Virus record (IMG/VR): IMGVR_UViG_3300020205_000940
Coordinates: 1 to 30,238 of that record
Length of the DNA: 30,238 nt
Source: a virus
Strand: one strand, 5' to 3'
Within the stretch, counting starts at the first letter, position 1; each line of letters starts with the position of its first letter. This document shows positions 3,005 through 26,268 of this stretch, one piece after another. The translations under genes were made by a program, and so were the position numbers. Below the pieces are notes generated by a model, which saw nothing but the letters and a program-made list of their open reading frames with translations, did not search any database and had not been told where the DNA came from.

Positions 3005-5302
3005 ATGTTTGTAAGAGATGGTAATAGCAATCCCAGAGAGATAGCAAAAATATTTGTAAGAGATGCTGCTGGCAATCCGCAAGAGATTAGTAAAATCTAT
3101 GTGCGGGATGCTGCTGGCAATCCAAAATTAGTTTTTGATAATACTGTGATCATTGTTGAAAATTTTTGCCCAACATGTGGAAATACAATTTTTAGAATTG
3201 AACCTGTTGCCCAACCCGCTACACCCGCGTCAGTCAGTAATCGCATAAGATTAACGGATGAAGCAGTAGGATTTGCTAGTGATAACACCAATTCTTGGAT
3301 TCCTAACACCACTACTTCTTCCCTTACCAGTGCTCCCTTTTTGTCTACTTACACAGTAAATAAAGACTATTGGTCAAAAGTTGCACTTGCTTATGATTAT
3401 ACCGTTGCGACAGAGACGGGCCCACAGACCGGAACCTTTGATATATTTGGACCACCAGGAACTATTAATTTTACATCCATGTATAGATTGCAATTTATCA
3501 CACCACAACCCGGTGATGGTGGGACATCGCAAACATTTCAATTACAGAATCCCACCGCCGCAGAGTATGCATCGGGAAGTTCTTGGTATTGGAACAAAAT
3601 TAATAGCATCTTTGCTACTCATATAAATTATCCAACATTGCCAGGATATATTATAGTCGATTGGAATACTTATACAGTAAGAGATACTCTTTTAGTAGTA
3701 ATGAAAGATCCTCAAAGAACATTTGATAGTCATTGTGGTTCTCCTGTTGTTCCTGATGGAAGCGGAACTCTACCACCTCCTGTGAGCGGATGTCCAGAAA
3801 CTGGTGTAAGAAATAGCAGCATATATCCGTTTCATAACAGAACTATTATAACTAAAGTACAAGAATTTGATTCATCTGATATTTTCTCAGCTAAGTGTGG
3901 ACAAAATTATTGTTTTGATGTTTTTAGTACAGTATTCGTTAGCGCAGAATCCGAATGTTTCAACCAACGCTTGATAAATTATGTGGATCCTGCGGGAACC
4001 ATAGTAACTGGAAATTGTACAGGTGGAATCGATGGTGATGGTAGTACTGGTATTGGTCAAGTAGGAATAGATAGTGTCTGTGATAGTAATGTTTATATTA
4101 ATTGGGTCGAGGGAACTGACGGAATTATTAATCCATTTAGTTTCATAGTAAACAAAGAAAATCACGGAACAGGAAGAACACTCCCAACACAGCTCGCAAA
4201 TGCTGCGGTACAAGATTGTTGTCCGTCAACATGTTATGGTCCTGTTCCAATGAGAGCAGCACCATCAAGTCAAACTATTACTGCATGTAGACAGGTTTAT
4301 CAAATACCCCCAATTAATACAATAAACGCTGATGGACAAGATCGTCTTGGGTTTTTTGAAAATATTTATACCTCTTTATTGATGGGAGCTGAAAGTATTG
4401 CAGGAACACAAGGAATTGGTTCTATAGCAGATATTAGAATTGTTCTACCTTGTTATGTCAATCTACATCCTGATTTTGGTAATTCTATAGTGAAAGTATT
4501 TCCAACACTATATGATAACTTTGTCAATAACGGCTTAGGTCCTACAGGAGCTGCAGCAAATATTGTAAGAGATAAAACTGTATGGGAAGCAGTAAAATCG
4601 TTTATGCCTTATGTTCCGGGAACTACTACAATATCAGATCCAACAAAGAGAAATTGGCTGTCTTCAGTTCATTTTCACTACAATGAAGATCGAACTTTTT
4701 CAGGATCTGGTGCTCCATTTAACAGAGCGCCTACTGGTATTAGTGCTAGTACTCCTAATGGATTCCCGACTCTGCTGTGGAATATATCAGGATATCCAAC
4801 CGAACAGTCTACGCATTATATTGTATTAGAATTAAGTTTTCAGGCAAATGATGTGTGCGTATCAAATGCGTTTAATATACTGCAATTGAAAACACCTGAA
4901 AATCAAAAATTCTTTATTCTTGGTATGCGTTTTTATCCAGTTTCTCGTGGTGGACATAAGCATCCTATTTTTAGAGATCATATAATACCCGCAAATGTAC
5001 AAACTTTTTCGAATACTAATGGTGGATTTATTGACTATTATGCCGGAAGCCAGAATCAAAATTTACCTACAGTAGATCAAATTGGGGCAGGGGCTGGCTT
5101 AAATATAGGACAATGGTTTACTACAAATACAATACAAACAACTGCTTTTGCCGACGGACAGACAAGAGTACATGCATTTAAGATTCCTAACTGTACCAGT
5201 ACCATAAACTTGTGTCAAGGAATTTACGGAATAAAGTATCCTGCCATAGGCACAATGAAAAAATTCTTAGCTAAATACTACCAGTCACCCATCAACACTT
5301 AA
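3005..5302 (+). CDS. Putative virion structural protein with N-terminal VRDAAGNP repeats
   Basis: This 765-residue protein starts one base after the previous stop, behind an AAGGAAA ribosome site, so the two are probably translationally coupled. Residues 2-44 hold three tandem copies of a 15-residue unit with the core VRD-x3-NP-x-E-I-x-K-I. Next comes a CPTCG motif (about residue 54) and a long, apparently beta-rich body with scattered cysteines (CGQNYC, a CCPSTC cluster near residue 407). Short VRD-type repeats occur at the ends of other phage tail proteins, as I recall, but the function of this protein is not known to me. Position beside the large fibre-like gene and ahead of gp13 suggests a fibre, whisker or baseplate component. 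That is inference from context only. Confidence 0.5.
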   Translation: MFVRDGNSNPREIAKIFVRDAAGNPQEISKIYVRDAAGNPKLVFDNTVIIVENFCPTCGNTIFRIEPVAQPATPASVSNRIRLTDEAVGFASDNTNSWIPNTTTSSLTSAPFLSTYTVNKDYWSKVALAYDYTVATETGPQTGTFDIFGPPGTINFTSMYRLQFITPQPGDGGTSQTFQLQNPTAAEYASGSSWYWNKINSIFATHINYPTLPGYIIVDWNTYTVRDTLLVVMKDPQRTFDSHCGSPVVPDGSGTLPPPVSGCPETGVRNSSIYPFHNRTIITKVQEFDSSDIFSAKCGQNYCFDVFSTVFVSAESECFNQRLINYVDPAGTIVTGNCTGGIDGDGSTGIGQVGIDSVCDSNVYINWVEGTDGIINPFSFIVNKENHGTGRTLPTQLANAAVQDCCPSTCYGPVPMRAAPSSQTITACRQVYQIPPINTINADGQDRLGFFENIYTSLLMGAESIAGTQGIGSIADIRIVLPCYVNLHPDFGNSIVKVFPTLYDNFVNNGLGPTGAAANIVRDKTVWEAVKSFMPYVPGTTTISDPTKRNWLSSVHFHYNEDRTFSGSGAPFNRAPTGISASTPNGFPTLLWNISGYPTEQSTHYIVLELSFQANDVCVSNAFNILQLKTPENQKFFILGMRFYPVSRGGHKHPIFRDHIIPANVQTFSNTNGGFIDYYAGSQNQNLPTVDQIGAGAGLNIGQWFTTNTIQTTAFADGQTRVHAFKIPNCTSTINLCQGIYGIKYPAIGTMKKFLAKYYQSPINT
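3008..3136 (+). repeat. 45-bp tandem repeat encoding FVRDAAGNPxEIxKI, about 2.9 copies
   Basis: Units start near 3008, 3053 and 3098. The DNA is also similar between copies, notably GATGCTGCTGGCAATCC in units 2 and 3, which indicates recent duplication. Unit 1 is the most diverged (GNSNPRE instead of AAGNPQE). Confidence 0.85.
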
Positions 5303-5318
5303 ATTATAAGGAGAAATT

Positions 5319-5666
5319 ATGAAGGTTAAATTGATTGAAGTTTATAGTTCTGTCGCAACTTTAAACAAACTAATAGAAGAACCTCTGCCAGCCAGAGTGT
5401 CTTTTAAACTCATGAAGCTACTGAATCAACTAAATGCAGAAGTTAAGTTGGTAGAAGATCAAAGACTGAAATTGGTTAAGCAATACTCCGAAGATGGTTC
5501 TACTGTCTCGGACACCAATAAAGACTCATTTATCCAAGAATTTACCGAATTCTTAAATGATGAAATCGATCTTGCATGGGAACCAATAGAAATAGATGCA
5601 TTAGGTGAAAATATCAAACTATCTGTCACAGATTTGTCCAAAATGCAATATTTGTTCTCAGAATAA
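5319..5666 (+). CDS. Small conserved-looking phage protein of unknown function
   Basis: This 115-residue protein has a clear start behind AAGGAG. It looks mainly helical, with a central segment (residues 17-50) of the type L-N-K-L-I-E-E-x-LPARVSFKLMKLLNQL followed by a charged stretch. That pattern recalls small tail-region proteins of unknown function in other phages (DUF1617-like), a weak resemblance. The C-terminal half is acidic. It is the last gene before the gp13 hairpin and late promoter, so it closes the fibre gene cluster. No enzyme motif or membrane segment is visible. Confidence 0.55.
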   Translation: MKVKLIEVYSSVATLNKLIEEPLPARVSFKLMKLLNQLNAEVKLVEDQRLKLVKQYSEDGSTVSDTNKDSFIQEFTEFLNDEIDLAWEPIEIDALGENIKLSVTDLSKMQYLFSE

Positions 5667-5687: not shown

Positions 5688-5734
5688 AAGGATCTCCTTG
5701 ATTTTATAAATAATGTAGAATCAAGGAGATTTTT
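5688..5734 (+). promoter_or_regulatory. RNA hairpin that would sequester the gp13 ribosome binding site
   Basis: ATCTCCTTGATT (5692-5703) and AATCAAGGAGAT (5719-5730) form a perfect 12-bp stem, extendable outward by two G-U and two A-U pairs. The 15-nt loop contains the late promoter TATAAATA. The 3' arm contains the gp13 Shine-Dalgarno AAGGAG (5723-5728), 8 nt before the ATG at 5737. Transcripts arriving from upstream would fold and hide the site. Transcripts starting from the promoter in the loop (expected near G5718) would lack the 5' arm. T4 gene e (lysozyme) is controlled by this kind of arrangement. The run of five U after the stem means it could also act as a weak terminator. Confidence 0.75.
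5705..5712 (+). promoter_or_regulatory. T4-type late promoter upstream of gp13
   Basis: An exact TATAAATA lies in the 70-bp gap before gp13. In T4 this octamer is the only core element recognised by RNA polymerase carrying gp55, with initiation about 6 nt downstream, here near 5718. The match is exact, intergenic and correctly oriented. Confidence 0.85.
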
Positions 5735-5736
5735 AA

Positions 5737-6555
5737 ATGGCAAGACCTAATTCACGGGAAAAACTCAAAGACTACTGCCTGCGAAGGTTAGGCTATCCTG
5801 TTGTGCAAATAAATGTCGATGATGCTCAATTAGAGGATCGTATGGACGATGCACTTCAATTCTTTGCAGAATATCACTTTGATGGTGTAGAGAGAGTTTA
5901 TTTCAAGAAACAAGTAACCCAAGAGGATATGGACAGAGGGTACATTGATCTAACACAACCTACTGTAGAAAATACTACAGACAACATTGTTGCTGCTCCT
6001 GCAATTGATCCAGATGGACAATCTATAATTAGTGTAATTAGATGCTTTCAATTGTTCGATACTCTTGGTGGTCTTGGTATGTTTGATGCCAAATACCAAA
6101 TGGCATTAAATGACATGTATGGGTTAAGAACAAACACATACGGAGATTCTCTCATAAGTTACAATATTACTCGTAGTCATATGCAGATGCTTCAGGATAT
6201 GTTAACTCCCGAAAAGATGATCGACTTTAGTAGAGTAACAAATAGAATCTATGTTGAAACAAATTGGAAAGAGAAAATGACAAAAAGTCAATATCTCGTT
6301 TTCGAAGCATATAGAATTCTTGATCCGGGATTGTATCCAGAGATCTACAATGATCGTCTGCTGAAGATGTATTACACTGCATTGATTCGAGAACAATGGG
6401 GATTGAATCTTTCTAAGTTTACCGGAATGAGTTTGCCGGGCGGAGTTTCTTTCAATGGTGCAAATATGGCATCAGAAGCGAAAGCAGAAGTAGATAAGAT
6501 AGAAGAAGAAATCCAAAGAAAGTATGAACTACCACCACAAGGATTCATAGGTTAA
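5737..6555 (+). CDS. 13: Neck protein gp13 (head completion)
   Basis: This 272-residue protein resembles T4 gp13 (309 aa), which with gp14 forms the head-tail neck after packaging. The N-terminal segment with KDYCLRRLGYPVVQINVDD followed by an acidic helix (EDRMDDALQFF) is typical of the gp13 proteins of T4-like marine phages. The C-terminal 35 residues form a charged helix (about 235-262). Its start is set by AAGGAG 8 nt upstream, and expression is probably restricted to late transcripts by the hairpin there. gp14 follows after one base and gp15 after that, the T4 order 13-14-15, which supports the call. Confidence 0.87.
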   Translation: MARPNSREKLKDYCLRRLGYPVVQINVDDAQLEDRMDDALQFFAEYHFDGVERVYFKKQVTQEDMDRGYIDLTQPTVENTTDNIVAAPAIDPDGQSIISVIRCFQLFDTLGGLGMFDAKYQMALNDMYGLRTNTYGDSLISYNITRSHMQMLQDMLTPEKMIDFSRVTNRIYVETNWKEKMTKSQYLVFEAYRILDPGLYPEIYNDRLLKMYYTALIREQWGLNLSKFTGMSLPGGVSFNGANMASEAKAEVDKIEEEIQRKYELPPQGFIG

Positions 6556-6556
6556 T

Positions 6557-7273
6557 ATGGCATTAAATCCGTATTTCAATAATCACGATTATAAACCAAC
6601 GCAAGATCTCATGGAAGATCTTGTTGAGGAATCTATTAAGATAAATGGAATAAATGTATATTACATTCCAAGACGATTTGTTGATTTGGATCAAATTTTT
6701 GGTGAAGATTCTTCTTCATTTTTCAAAGACGCAATTCAAATAGAAATGTACATGGATAATTACTCTGGATTTTCTGGAGAACGAGAAATCATTTCTAAAT
6801 TCGGATTAGAAATAAGAGATACGCTTAGTCTAGTTGTTTCGAAAAGAAGATTTCAAAAAGAATCTGCTAAACTTCCTGTAATGTCTGACAGACCAGTTCA
6901 GATATCAAATCCAATGGAAGGAGATCTTATTTGGTATCCTTTTACCAAAGCTCTGTTTGAAATCAAATTCGTAGACACTAAAGAAGTATTTTTCCAATTT
7001 GGCAAACTCTACACATATAAATTAGAATGCGAACTGTTCAAATATTCACACGAATCTCTGGATACTGGTATATCTGATATAGATGCAATTGAAGACGATA
7101 TTAGCAAGAGTGTAGTAGAGAATCTCGATTACAATCAAGATGGTGTTGTAGATGATACCATCACATCTGATCAAGATTCTAGACAACGAAGCGATAATAC
7201 CAGAATAGAGACAGATACCCGCGATCTTATAGATTTTAGAGAAATTGATCCATTCTCGGAGAACAAGTATTAA
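6557..7273 (+). CDS. 14: Neck protein gp14
   Basis: This 238-residue protein matches T4 gp14 (256 aa) in size, position and style: an N-terminal MALNPYFNNH segment, a central PRRFVDLDQIFGED motif and a beta-rich middle (residues 60-165). gp14 assembles with gp13 at the portal end of the filled head to accept the tail. The last 70 residues are strongly acidic and contain D191-x-N193-x-D195-G-x-x-D199, which fits a calcium-binding EF-hand or dockerin-like loop. The gene starts one base after the gp13 stop, and its last base overlaps the gp15 start (TAATG). Confidence 0.87.
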   Translation: MALNPYFNNHDYKPTQDLMEDLVEESIKINGINVYYIPRRFVDLDQIFGEDSSSFFKDAIQIEMYMDNYSGFSGEREIISKFGLEIRDTLSLVVSKRRFQKESAKLPVMSDRPVQISNPMEGDLIWYPFTKALFEIKFVDTKEVFFQFGKLYTYKLECELFKYSHESLDTGISDIDAIEDDISKSVVENLDYNQDGVVDDTITSDQDSRQRSDNTRIETDTRDLIDFREIDPFSENKY

Positions 7274-7941
7274 TGTTTACTACTTTCTATCATGGTATGA
7301 CAAAGAAATTGACAGCTGGCTTTGGCACACTGTTCAATAACATGTACATCGAACGCGGTGAAAATGCCACATACAAGAAAATTAAAGTTCCATTATCATA
7401 TGCACCAAAAGAAAAAATGATGGAAAGAATTGGTCTTGAATTAGACAATCCTTCTGCTGCAGCAGTGCAGCTGACTTTGCCAAGAATGTCGTTCATGTTG
7501 ACTGGTCTTGAATATGATACAGAAAGAAAACGCAACAGTTCTGGAAAACGGATGTCAGAGAAAACACTACAGAATAGTGATATCATAATCAACTACCACT
7601 ATAACGAAGTGCCATATAAATTAAACTTTTCGTTGTTTGTATATGCCAGAACAATGGACGATGGATTGAAGATAATAGAACAAATCTTCCCATTCTTTAC
7701 ACCAGATTTCACTTTAACAATTAAACCCGGTATTCTTGCAGATTATTATGAAAAGGTAGATGTTCCTGTCACTCTTATAGAAACAACGACAGATCAACAA
7801 TTTGATGGTTCTTTCAAGGACGAAGCATCTAGAATGATAATTTGGGAATTGAAATTTGTGGTTAGAACATATTACTACGGTCCAGTAAATCAAGCCGGAC
7901 TAATCAAAACGATGGATATCAACCTGTTCAATTTGGATTAA
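7273..7941 (+). CDS. 15: Tail sheath stabiliser / tail completion protein gp15
   Basis: This 222-residue protein has the gp15 layout. An N-terminal FYHGMTKKLTAGFGTLFNNM segment is followed by KKIKVPLSYAPKEKMMER, which corresponds to the IRVPITYASKEHFM region of T4 gp15. Then come LPRMSFMLTGLEYD and the EQIFPFFTPDFTLTI motif (T4: EQILPYFQPHFNTTM). T4 gp15 (272 aa) caps the sheath and joins tail to neck; this copy lacks most of the C-terminal extension. Its start overlaps the gp14 stop by one base. Confidence 0.88.
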   Translation: MFTTFYHGMTKKLTAGFGTLFNNMYIERGENATYKKIKVPLSYAPKEKMMERIGLELDNPSAAAVQLTLPRMSFMLTGLEYDTERKRNSSGKRMSEKTLQNSDIIINYHYNEVPYKLNFSLFVYARTMDDGLKIIEQIFPFFTPDFTLTIKPGILADYYEKVDVPVTLIETTTDQQFDGSFKDEASRMIIWELKFVVRTYYYGPVNQAGLIKTMDINLFNLD

Positions 7942-12147: not shown

Positions 12148-12702
12148 ATGGACATTACAAAATTTACAAGTTTATTTGATGGTGGAGCAAGATCGAATCT
12201 ATTTCAGATTCAAATATCTAATACACCACAAGGAGTTCCACTTCTTGGCCAAGACGATCAAATAGTTCACATCAAAGCAATTCAATTACCAGAAACTACA
12301 GTTGGTGAAATTCCTGTAAATCACATGGGAAGAATATACAAATTCCCAGGAGATAGATTATATAATGATGTATCTCTGACTATTCTGAGTGATGGAACTA
12401 ATATGAGAATTCGGCATTTCTTTGAGGCATGGAATCATGCTTGGAACAACCACATTAGCAATACAGGTCTATTGCCAAATGATAACCAGCTGAATGCAGT
12501 TGTTAAATTGTCGCAATTGGATCGTAATCACCAACCGATTCGTACATATTTATTAAATAAGGCTTGGTGCAGTGATGTTTCTGCTGTTGATCTTTCTCAT
12601 GACAATAATGATGCTTTAGTAGAATTTACAGTAGCCATAAAATACCATTACTTTACAGTAGACGGTGGTACTTCTGCCGGACCTGGTCAAGGATTGGTTT
12701 AA
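12148..12702 (+). CDS. 19: Tail tube protein gp19
   Basis: This 184-residue protein matches the gp19 family (T4, 163 aa), which stacks as hexamers to form the inner tube. Recognisable parts are MDITKFTSLFDGGARSNLF, the IQLPETTVGEIPV segment, GRIYKFPGDR, DVSLTILSDG and the helix RHFFEAWNHAW. The last 15 residues are Gly-rich. It follows gp18 with AAAGGAG in the spacer. A second protein with the same pattern is encoded at 22384. Confidence 0.92.
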   Translation: MDITKFTSLFDGGARSNLFQIQISNTPQGVPLLGQDDQIVHIKAIQLPETTVGEIPVNHMGRIYKFPGDRLYNDVSLTILSDGTNMRIRHFFEAWNHAWNNHISNTGLLPNDNQLNAVVKLSQLDRNHQPIRTYLLNKAWCSDVSAVDLSHDNNDALVEFTVAIKYHYFTVDGGTSAGPGQGLV

Positions 12703-22338: not shown

Positions 22339-22370
22339 GGGGGGTTCCGCAAGGAACCCCCTATTCTTTT
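22339..22370 (+). terminator. Intrinsic terminator after gp23
   Basis: GGGGGTTCC (22340-22348) pairs perfectly with GGAACCCCC (22353-22361) across a GCAA tetraloop, a stable GNRA loop closed by C-G. TATTCTTTT follows. It lies 24 bp after the gp23 stop and is by far the most GC-rich hairpin in the window. Confidence 0.93.
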
Positions 22371-22377
22371 ATAAATA
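22370..22377 (+). promoter_or_regulatory. T4-type late promoter directly before the tail-tube-like gene
   Basis: An exact TATAAATA shares its first base with the end of the terminator T-run and ends only 6 bp before the ATG at 22384. With T4 spacing the first base of the RNA would be at or within two bases of that ATG. Confidence 0.8.
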
Positions 22378-22383
22378 CCCTAT

Positions 22384-22911
22384 ATGTCTACATTCATCAC
22401 TAATGCAATAGCCAGACAACCAAAGTCAATCAACCCTATGCAGTTGAATGAATATAAGATGGTTTTGCATAGAACGCCTCACTTAGTTTACTTCTGTCAA
22501 GCAATTACCCTACCCGGTATACAGGGCACTGCCATAAGTCAGCCTAGTCCCTTTGCTACGGATATTAAACGCACCCCTGGCAAGACTGTGCATGACGATT
22601 TGACAGTAAACTTCATAGTTAATGAGGATATGAGTAATTGGATGGAATTATATGAATGGTCTAGGATCATTATGCCAATTGATACATTCAAAAATCAAGT
22701 GAAAGAGGATGACAGATTTTCTGATATTTCTCTTATAGTAATGAACAGCAAATCGAATGCCATTTTGCATTTTACATATATTATGTGTTTTCCTCTCGTC
22801 ATATCCGGACTAAAACTAGACAGTACTATTAGCGACATTAATCCAGCAGTAGCCAGTGTTACCTTTGCTTATAGCGGATTTACAGTCCAGACACTTAAAT
22901 CAAACTTTTAA
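22384..22911 (+). CDS. Second tail-tube-like protein (gp19-fold), 175 aa
   Basis: The layout follows gp19: a hydrophobic strand then ITLPGIQG (gp19: IQLPETTV), a PG turn (KRTPGKT; gp19: KFPGDR), DDLTVNFIVNED (gp19: DVSLTILSDG) and an Asn-to-Trp helix NWMELYEW (gp19: FFEAWNHAW). I infer a tail-tube fold. It could be a tube initiator or terminator, or a baseplate tube ring. Its place between gp23 and uvsY is where T4-like cyanophages carry a small tail completion gene (annotated gp3, as I recall). No Shine-Dalgarno precedes the ATG, and the late promoter ends 6 bp upstream, so the late mRNA may be leaderless. Confidence 0.65.
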   Translation: MSTFITNAIARQPKSINPMQLNEYKMVLHRTPHLVYFCQAITLPGIQGTAISQPSPFATDIKRTPGKTVHDDLTVNFIVNEDMSNWMELYEWSRIIMPIDTFKNQVKEDDRFSDISLIVMNSKSNAILHFTYIMCFPLVISGLKLDSTISDINPAVASVTFAYSGFTVQTLKSNF

Positions 22912-25668: not shown

Positions 25669-26268
25669 ATGAGCAAAAAGAAAAAGAAAAAGAAAAGTAC
25701 TAAAATAGATTCTTACACGGAATTATTACCTATACCAGTAGTAAAAGACGAAGAGAACAAGTCACACTACATCAATAACAAAAAGTTCTTCGATGAGATG
25801 GTATTGTGGAAAGATCGTGTCAATGAAGCGCGAGAGATAGGAGAACCCGTTCCTCCTGTAACAACCTATATTGGCCACTGCTTCATGGAAATTGCACACA
25901 ACTTAGCCAAAAAGCCAAATTTCATGAACTATCAATTCAAGGATGATATGATAGGAGATGGAATAGAGAACTGTTTGATGTATTGTTCTAACTTTGATCC
26001 GAACAAATCAAATAATCCTTTTTCGTATTTTACTCAGATAATATATTATGCATTCTTAAGAAGAATACAAAAAGAAAAGAAGCAAACACTAATCAAATAC
26101 AAGTATCTGAGATCTCTTGATACCAAAGGAGATTTGTCCGATTACCTGAAAGTGTTGGGTATTTCAGAAGAAGAAGAAATACATCTTAAGAACATGGAAG
26201 AAAATAACGAACCAAAGAAGACACTGAAAGTAAAGAAGAAGAAAGTTAATTTCTTGGAGGAAGAATGA
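25669..26268 (+). CDS. 55: Late sigma factor gp55
   Basis: This 199-residue protein matches T4 gp55 (185 aa), the small sigma that directs host RNA polymerase to TATAAATA late promoters. The sigma region-2-like core is clear: FKDDMIGDGIENCLMYCSNFD, then NPFSYFTQIIYYAFLRRIQKEKK (about residues 90-138). The N-terminus has seven consecutive Lys (3-9), encoded by AAAAAG repeats. The C-terminus ends VNFLEEE, which resembles the hydrophobic/acidic tail by which T4 gp55 binds the sliding clamp gp45. Six matching promoters lie in this window. The stop overlaps the gp47 start (ATGA). Confidence 0.93.
   Translation: MSKKKKKKKSTKIDSYTELLPIPVVKDEENKSHYINNKKFFDEMVLWKDRVNEAREIGEPVPPVTTYIGHCFMEIAHNLAKKPNFMNYQFKDDMIGDGIENCLMYCSNFDPNKSNNPFSYFTQIIYYAFLRRIQKEKKQTLIKYKYLRSLDTKGDLSDYLKVLGISEEEEIHLKNMEENNEPKKTLKVKKKKVNFLEEE

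Follow-up and report, generated by a model that had tools for sequence, protein, structure and literature searches.

A late promoter nested in a hairpin probably controls translation of the neck gene gp13 in uncultured T4-like phages

We analysed a virus record of 30,238 bases (the window). It belongs to a T4-like phage, in which gp13, gp14, gp15, terminase, sheath, tube, portal and protease genes are recognisable, together with those for the scaffold, the major head protein, a UvsY-like protein, a DNA helicase, gp55 and an SbcD-like protein. The features that bear on the gp13 leader are collected in Table 1. Positions 5692-5703 read ATCTCCTTGATT, and the exact reverse complement follows at 5719-5730; the perfect 12-bp inverted repeat described in an earlier note on this DNA was thus right to the base. 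With one U.G pair included, the repeat reaches 15 nt (5692-5706/5716-5730), and when folded as RNA it gives a hairpin of about 21 pairs with a 5-nt loop. The earlier note had also placed a late-promoter element in the loop of the repeat and the AAGGAG of gp13 inside its 3' arm. Both were found there. TATAAATA falls in the loop, 15 nt long, that the 12-bp repeat encloses, but its first bases join the extended stem. The gp13 ATG is at 5737. In T4, late promoters carry TATAAATA at -13 to -6 (PMC1524935), and the same spacing, which we assume for another phage lineage, predicts +1 at G5718. This agrees with the start that had been proposed, one base ahead of the 3' arm of the repeat, from which late RNA would lack the 5' arm.

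Table 1. Features of the gp13 leader and associated genes in the window
Feature	Position	Strand	Remarks
Upstream gene, co-directional, function unknown	5319..5666	+	phrog_1401; expected source of read-through RNA into the hairpin
Hairpin 5' arm (anti-SD)	5692..5706	+	12 perfect pairs (5692-5703), 3 further including one U.G
Late-promoter element TATAAATA	5705..5712	+	Between the arms; predicted +1 = G5718; T4 spacing from PMC1524935
Hairpin 3' arm with SD	5716..5730	+	Repeat and RNA folding
gp13 Shine-Dalgarno (SD) AAGGAG	5723..5728	+	ATG 8 nt downstream
Five-T run between SD and ATG	5730..5734	+	Possible weak terminator tail; unconserved among relatives
gp13 neck protein / head-tail adaptor Ad2	5737..6555	+	phrog_211, E 1e-37; 272 aa; opens the 13-14-15 neck block
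gp14 head closure Hc2	6557..7273	+	phrog_460; begins right after the gp13 stop codon
gp15 tail sheath stabilizer	7273..7941	+	phrog_227; overlaps the gp14 stop codon
gp55-type late sigma factor	25669..26268	+	phrog_234, E 8e-56; expected reader of TATAAATA

Only one perfect 12-bp inverted repeat with a loop of 3-20 nt occurs in the 30-kb window, and dinucleotide shuffling yielded a mean of 0.1 such repeats per shuffle (40 shuffles, one of which gave 4). We then modelled two transcripts, a read-through RNA carrying the upstream 90 nt and a late RNA beginning at 5718, and compared them by the energy needed to open the SD, the mean unpaired probability of the SD being too blunt a measure. In the RNA started upstream, the SD is predicted to be paired in a stable helix, with an opening cost of 15.8 kcal/mol versus 1.4 kcal/mol in the late RNA. 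None of 3000 shuffles of the DNA upstream of the promoter reached 15.8 kcal/mol. Folding with and without the bases before 5718 thus bore out, as a prediction, that read-through RNA would be closed and late RNA open. No curated Rfam family matched the site, where only sub-threshold microRNA-like hairpin matches were returned. In cultured phages, the DNA of the locus had no near match, and a distant search gave pieces at chance level.

We then turned to relatives. Four gp13 scans gave 320 loci which, together with named phages, represent 223 distinct upstream regions. Among relatives with a gp13 at least 67% identical and with upstream sequence, all those sampled keep a hairpin with the late promoter between the arms. 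A switch-like arrangement was present at 114 of the 150 gp13 loci that have a late-promoter-like element and an SD (9% after shuffling), a fraction that describes the sampled clades rather than all T4-like phages and is biased upward, since three of the four gp13 queries had been picked for carrying the hairpin. Such loci occur in 38 of 67 gp13 clusters at 80% identity and in 11 of 19 at 60% identity. The SD was closed in the long RNA at 116 loci, and at 114 of these an RNA started at the promoter lowered the cost to 3 kcal/mol or less. On the gp13 tree the trait is clustered, yet it requires at least 9 changes even on well supported branches (labels from a stricter cut-off). A gp55 homologue was found in the window and in 9 of 10 large relatives. 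In some relatives, among them the CTCCGTATAAATA...ACGGAG type, T4 spacing would put the start within the SD itself, and these may therefore use a different spacing.

The sequences of the stems vary between relatives. A MAFFT alignment of the hairpins lost the register of the arms because the distances between promoter and arms vary, and in its place we used a swap test together with a pair table anchored on the SD. In 30 representatives, the 3' arm paired with its own 5' arm at a mean of -14.5 kcal/mol and with that of another lineage at -7.4 kcal/mol. In the pair table, positions flanking the SD core were occupied by several Watson-Crick types. The swap test, the distinct hairpins and this table thus agree that compensatory changes have kept the pairing. 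Covariation of the arms in relatives, the refutation test that the earlier note had set for itself, was therefore found, own-arm pairing being better than that with a swapped arm. Moreover, imperfect stem positions were G.U in 38 cases versus A.C in 10 (14 versus 4 per cluster, p=0.03). This excess points to RNA of the gene strand as the paired molecule, and C-to-T mutation could contribute to it.

These data bear on two other functions for the stem. The palindrome might work as DNA, a protein operator or a cruciform controlling transcription from the late promoter, with masking of the SD being incidental. Indeed, the promoter sits within the inverted repeat, and an operator for the I-TevI protein itself overlies the I-TevI late promoter (PMC2988022). 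However, the arms differ by lineage while complementarity to the SD stays, unlike what would be seen at a protein site, G.U exceeds A.C in the stems, and the late promoters of genes 22 and 23 are without such a repeat; we consider a DNA-level role very unlikely. The stem might instead be mainly a processing or stability element on read-through RNA, such as an RNase III site, for which the about 21 RNA pairs in the window could suffice. Stems of just 8-12 pairs in many relatives argue against this, as does the fact that pairing of the SD, and not stem length, is the conserved constant, and we regard such a role as extremely unlikely.

Termination deserves more weight. The hairpin could be an intrinsic terminator of the upstream operon that late RNA escapes through the nested promoter, giving transcriptional insulation, alone or together with SD masking. 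Its anatomy suits this, since termination also needs the 5' arm, and T-runs follow both the 3' arm in the window (Table 1) and, with at least four Ts, the SD in 36 of 71 distinct hairpins. Against this, 29 of the 71 have no T-run above 2 (e.g., GGAGAAGAAATG), the stretch from SD to ATG is rich in A/T in any case, and the window hairpin was not in the output of a terminator scan. We consider this explanation unlikely, and termination would be no more than an additional function in certain lineages.

Some leaders depart from the layout of the window. At L075-L080, the start of the 5' arm is shared with the late promoter (CATATAAATAGTCTTATAG...CTGTAGGACTATTT), and most of the arm would be missing from late RNA. 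At L468-L488, CTAAATA, an Aeh1-type late element (PMC1524935), lies within a CCTC...GAGG repeat. The hairpin/promoter module of the window (about 58 nt) recurs identically at L167:216-280, before a different gp13 and next to unrelated upstream DNA, and L413, 98% identical to L167, has another hairpin. This module may reflect recombination or an assembly chimera, and since the latter is conceivable, we do not claim a transfer.

The specificity of the arrangement was investigated by scanning late promoters adjoining genes in the window and in three relatives of 109-157 kb. The gp13 promoter was the standout of this build in the window and in two relatives (15.8, 14.3 and 17.0 kcal/mol). The gene 22 and 23 leaders were open, and one other short reading frame scored in each of two relatives. 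The gp13 hairpin of the third relative escaped the filter because its promoter and SD nearly touch. In a census of viral contigs, CTCCTT-TATAAATA-AAGGAG was compared with a scrambled-arm control by the inward extension of the stem, among the matches listed. Stems extended by a mean of 3.1 pairs versus 0.67 in the control among these matches, and at least 3 extension pairs were present at 31 of 57 census sites versus 0 of 45 control sites, again among the matches listed. Within the same matches, gp13 lay downstream at 11 of the 57 sites and at 0 of the 45 control sites. In unrelated phage contigs, the same device stands before tail tube (L095, L098, L205) and baseplate hub (L108) genes, and anti-SD, TATAAATA and SD also precede terminase (L118) and HNH-like endonuclease (L109, L171) genes.

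The census also informs the possibility that the pattern is a by-product, arising from a repeat formed by chance or from the SD of a divergent gene that only looks like an anti-SD. Two facing SDs at true divergent late promoters do give such patterns, and a divergent reading frame was present at 21 of 78 ORF-linked census sites among the matches listed. At the window locus, however, the upstream gene runs in the same direction as gp13 and the 5' arm is not followed by any minus-strand start, and chance is excluded by the shuffles and the swap test. This reading is refuted for the window locus, and we give it practically no weight.

The strong version of the hairpin was absent from all 18 named phages that we examined (T4 and 17 others), with Pelagibacter phage Mosig showing a weak one (4.5 versus 0.6 kcal/mol). 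The control is thus dispensable in T4-like biology. A different layout was found in another lineage, L039-L070, where 30 gp13 loci carry [C/T/G]ATAAATA with its end 5-6 nt ahead of the ATG and mostly have no SD; their late gp13 mRNA is possibly leaderless. The window has a comparable site elsewhere, at 22340-22384. Besides a first tail-tube-like gene (12148-12702), it carries a second (22384-22911, phrog_45), and TATAAATA at 22370-22377 ends 6 nt before the ATG of the latter, with no clear SD. This TATAAATA is directly preceded by a terminator-like hairpin, GGGGGGTTCC...GGAACCCCCT. The late mRNA of this second gene is probably leaderless.

We then considered which RNA would enter the gp13 hairpin from upstream. 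In a 108-kb relative (G001), co-directional baseplate hub, wedge and fibre-like genes run up to gp13. In the window, a 765-aa gene at 3005-5302, without a PHROG match, opens with repeated (F/Y)VRD..G.P..I.KI units, and G001 has a similar 860-aa gene ahead of the same small gene as in the window. By T4 homology, the baseplate and fibre genes upstream would themselves be late. Read-through RNA would thus probably come from structural genes and would not have to be early. Insulating the neck operon against it therefore fits at least as well as the timing control for head completion that had been suggested, which is unproven; timing between early and late is possible. In the window, about 26 nt separate the upstream stop codon (5664-5666) from the 5' arm, and a ribosome terminating at this codon should therefore leave the stem closed; the gap is shorter in some relatives.

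Taken together, the gp13 leader is best explained by masking of the SD at the RNA level that the nested late promoter relieves, and we consider this likely to be correct. Three findings, namely the anatomy, the difference predicted for the two RNAs and the conserved pairing in evolution, point to a cis-acting, promoter-dependent translation gate. RNA entering from the upstream baseplate/fibre block would contain both arms and fold into the long hairpin, hiding the gp13 SD, and gp13 and the genes coupled to it would be poorly translated. RNA polymerase with the phage late sigma factor would start within the hairpin, at about G5718, and since such late RNA is without the 5' arm, the hairpin could not form and the RNA would be translated. 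The purpose would be that the neck operon follows its own late promoter alone, as insulation and possibly for timing. Since many related phages retain the gp13 arrangement while their stem sequences change, it is very probably a genuine control of the type that T4 is known to have. More tentatively, many uncultured T4-like phages may tie translation of the neck operon only to its own late promoter, the sampled majority through a promoter-split, repeatedly rewritten hairpin and L039-L070 through leaderless late mRNA, a generalisation that we consider possible rather than probable.

If this generalisation holds, it would represent a conserved rule of head-tail joining that T4 does not show. The open-access literature, to which our search was confined (subscription journals lay outside its scope), held no report of such control at gene 13. 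Gates of the gene e type have so far been described for lysis, accessory and homing-endonuclease genes, and here one would act on an essential assembly gene. Its compensatory upkeep across dozens of divergent lineages suggests that selection keeps neck proteins off read-through transcripts. The leaders also form a natural set of matched hairpins in which the joint evolution of late promoters and masking of ribosome-binding sites (RBSs) can be studied, and the gate helps in predicting operon limits of uncultured phages.

The proposed mechanism is the one known from T4 gene e, gene 49 and I-TevI, at a new gene, gp13. T4 itself also has a strong hairpin just 5' of the gene 13 SD but, unlike that of the window, it (GGGGCCGCAAGGCCCC) stops before the SD, has no late promoter inside and leaves the SD open (0.5 kcal/mol). 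There is a close likeness to the leader of the T4 lysozyme gene e, a hairpin with nested late promoters (PMC3014915). There too, the 3' arm holds the SD and the 5' part a late promoter TATAAATA, and late RNA is without the 5' strand. The earlier note had invoked the logic of gene e, and the same calculation gave the same energy signature, 14.2 versus 1.0 kcal/mol. In contrast, e is a lysis gene entered by early transcripts, whereas gp13 is a neck gene behind baseplate and fibre genes. The leaders of T4 genes 49 and soc resemble that of gp13 in that a late gene lies on a longer transcript and the RBS is masked in the long RNA (PMC3014915, PMC2988022). They serve other genes and pair more weakly than the window leader (6.2 versus 1.5 kcal/mol for gene 49), and soc, although a member of the class, was missed by the SD-opening measure. 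In the leaders of the homing endonucleases I-TevI, segB and Aeh1 mobE, a hairpin masks the RBS of RNA started upstream (PMC2988022) and, as at gp13, the late promoter is placed so that late RNA has too little sequence for the hairpin. Those are mobile genes in early or middle units, whereas gp13 is an essential structural gene whose stems have been repeatedly rewritten across lineages.
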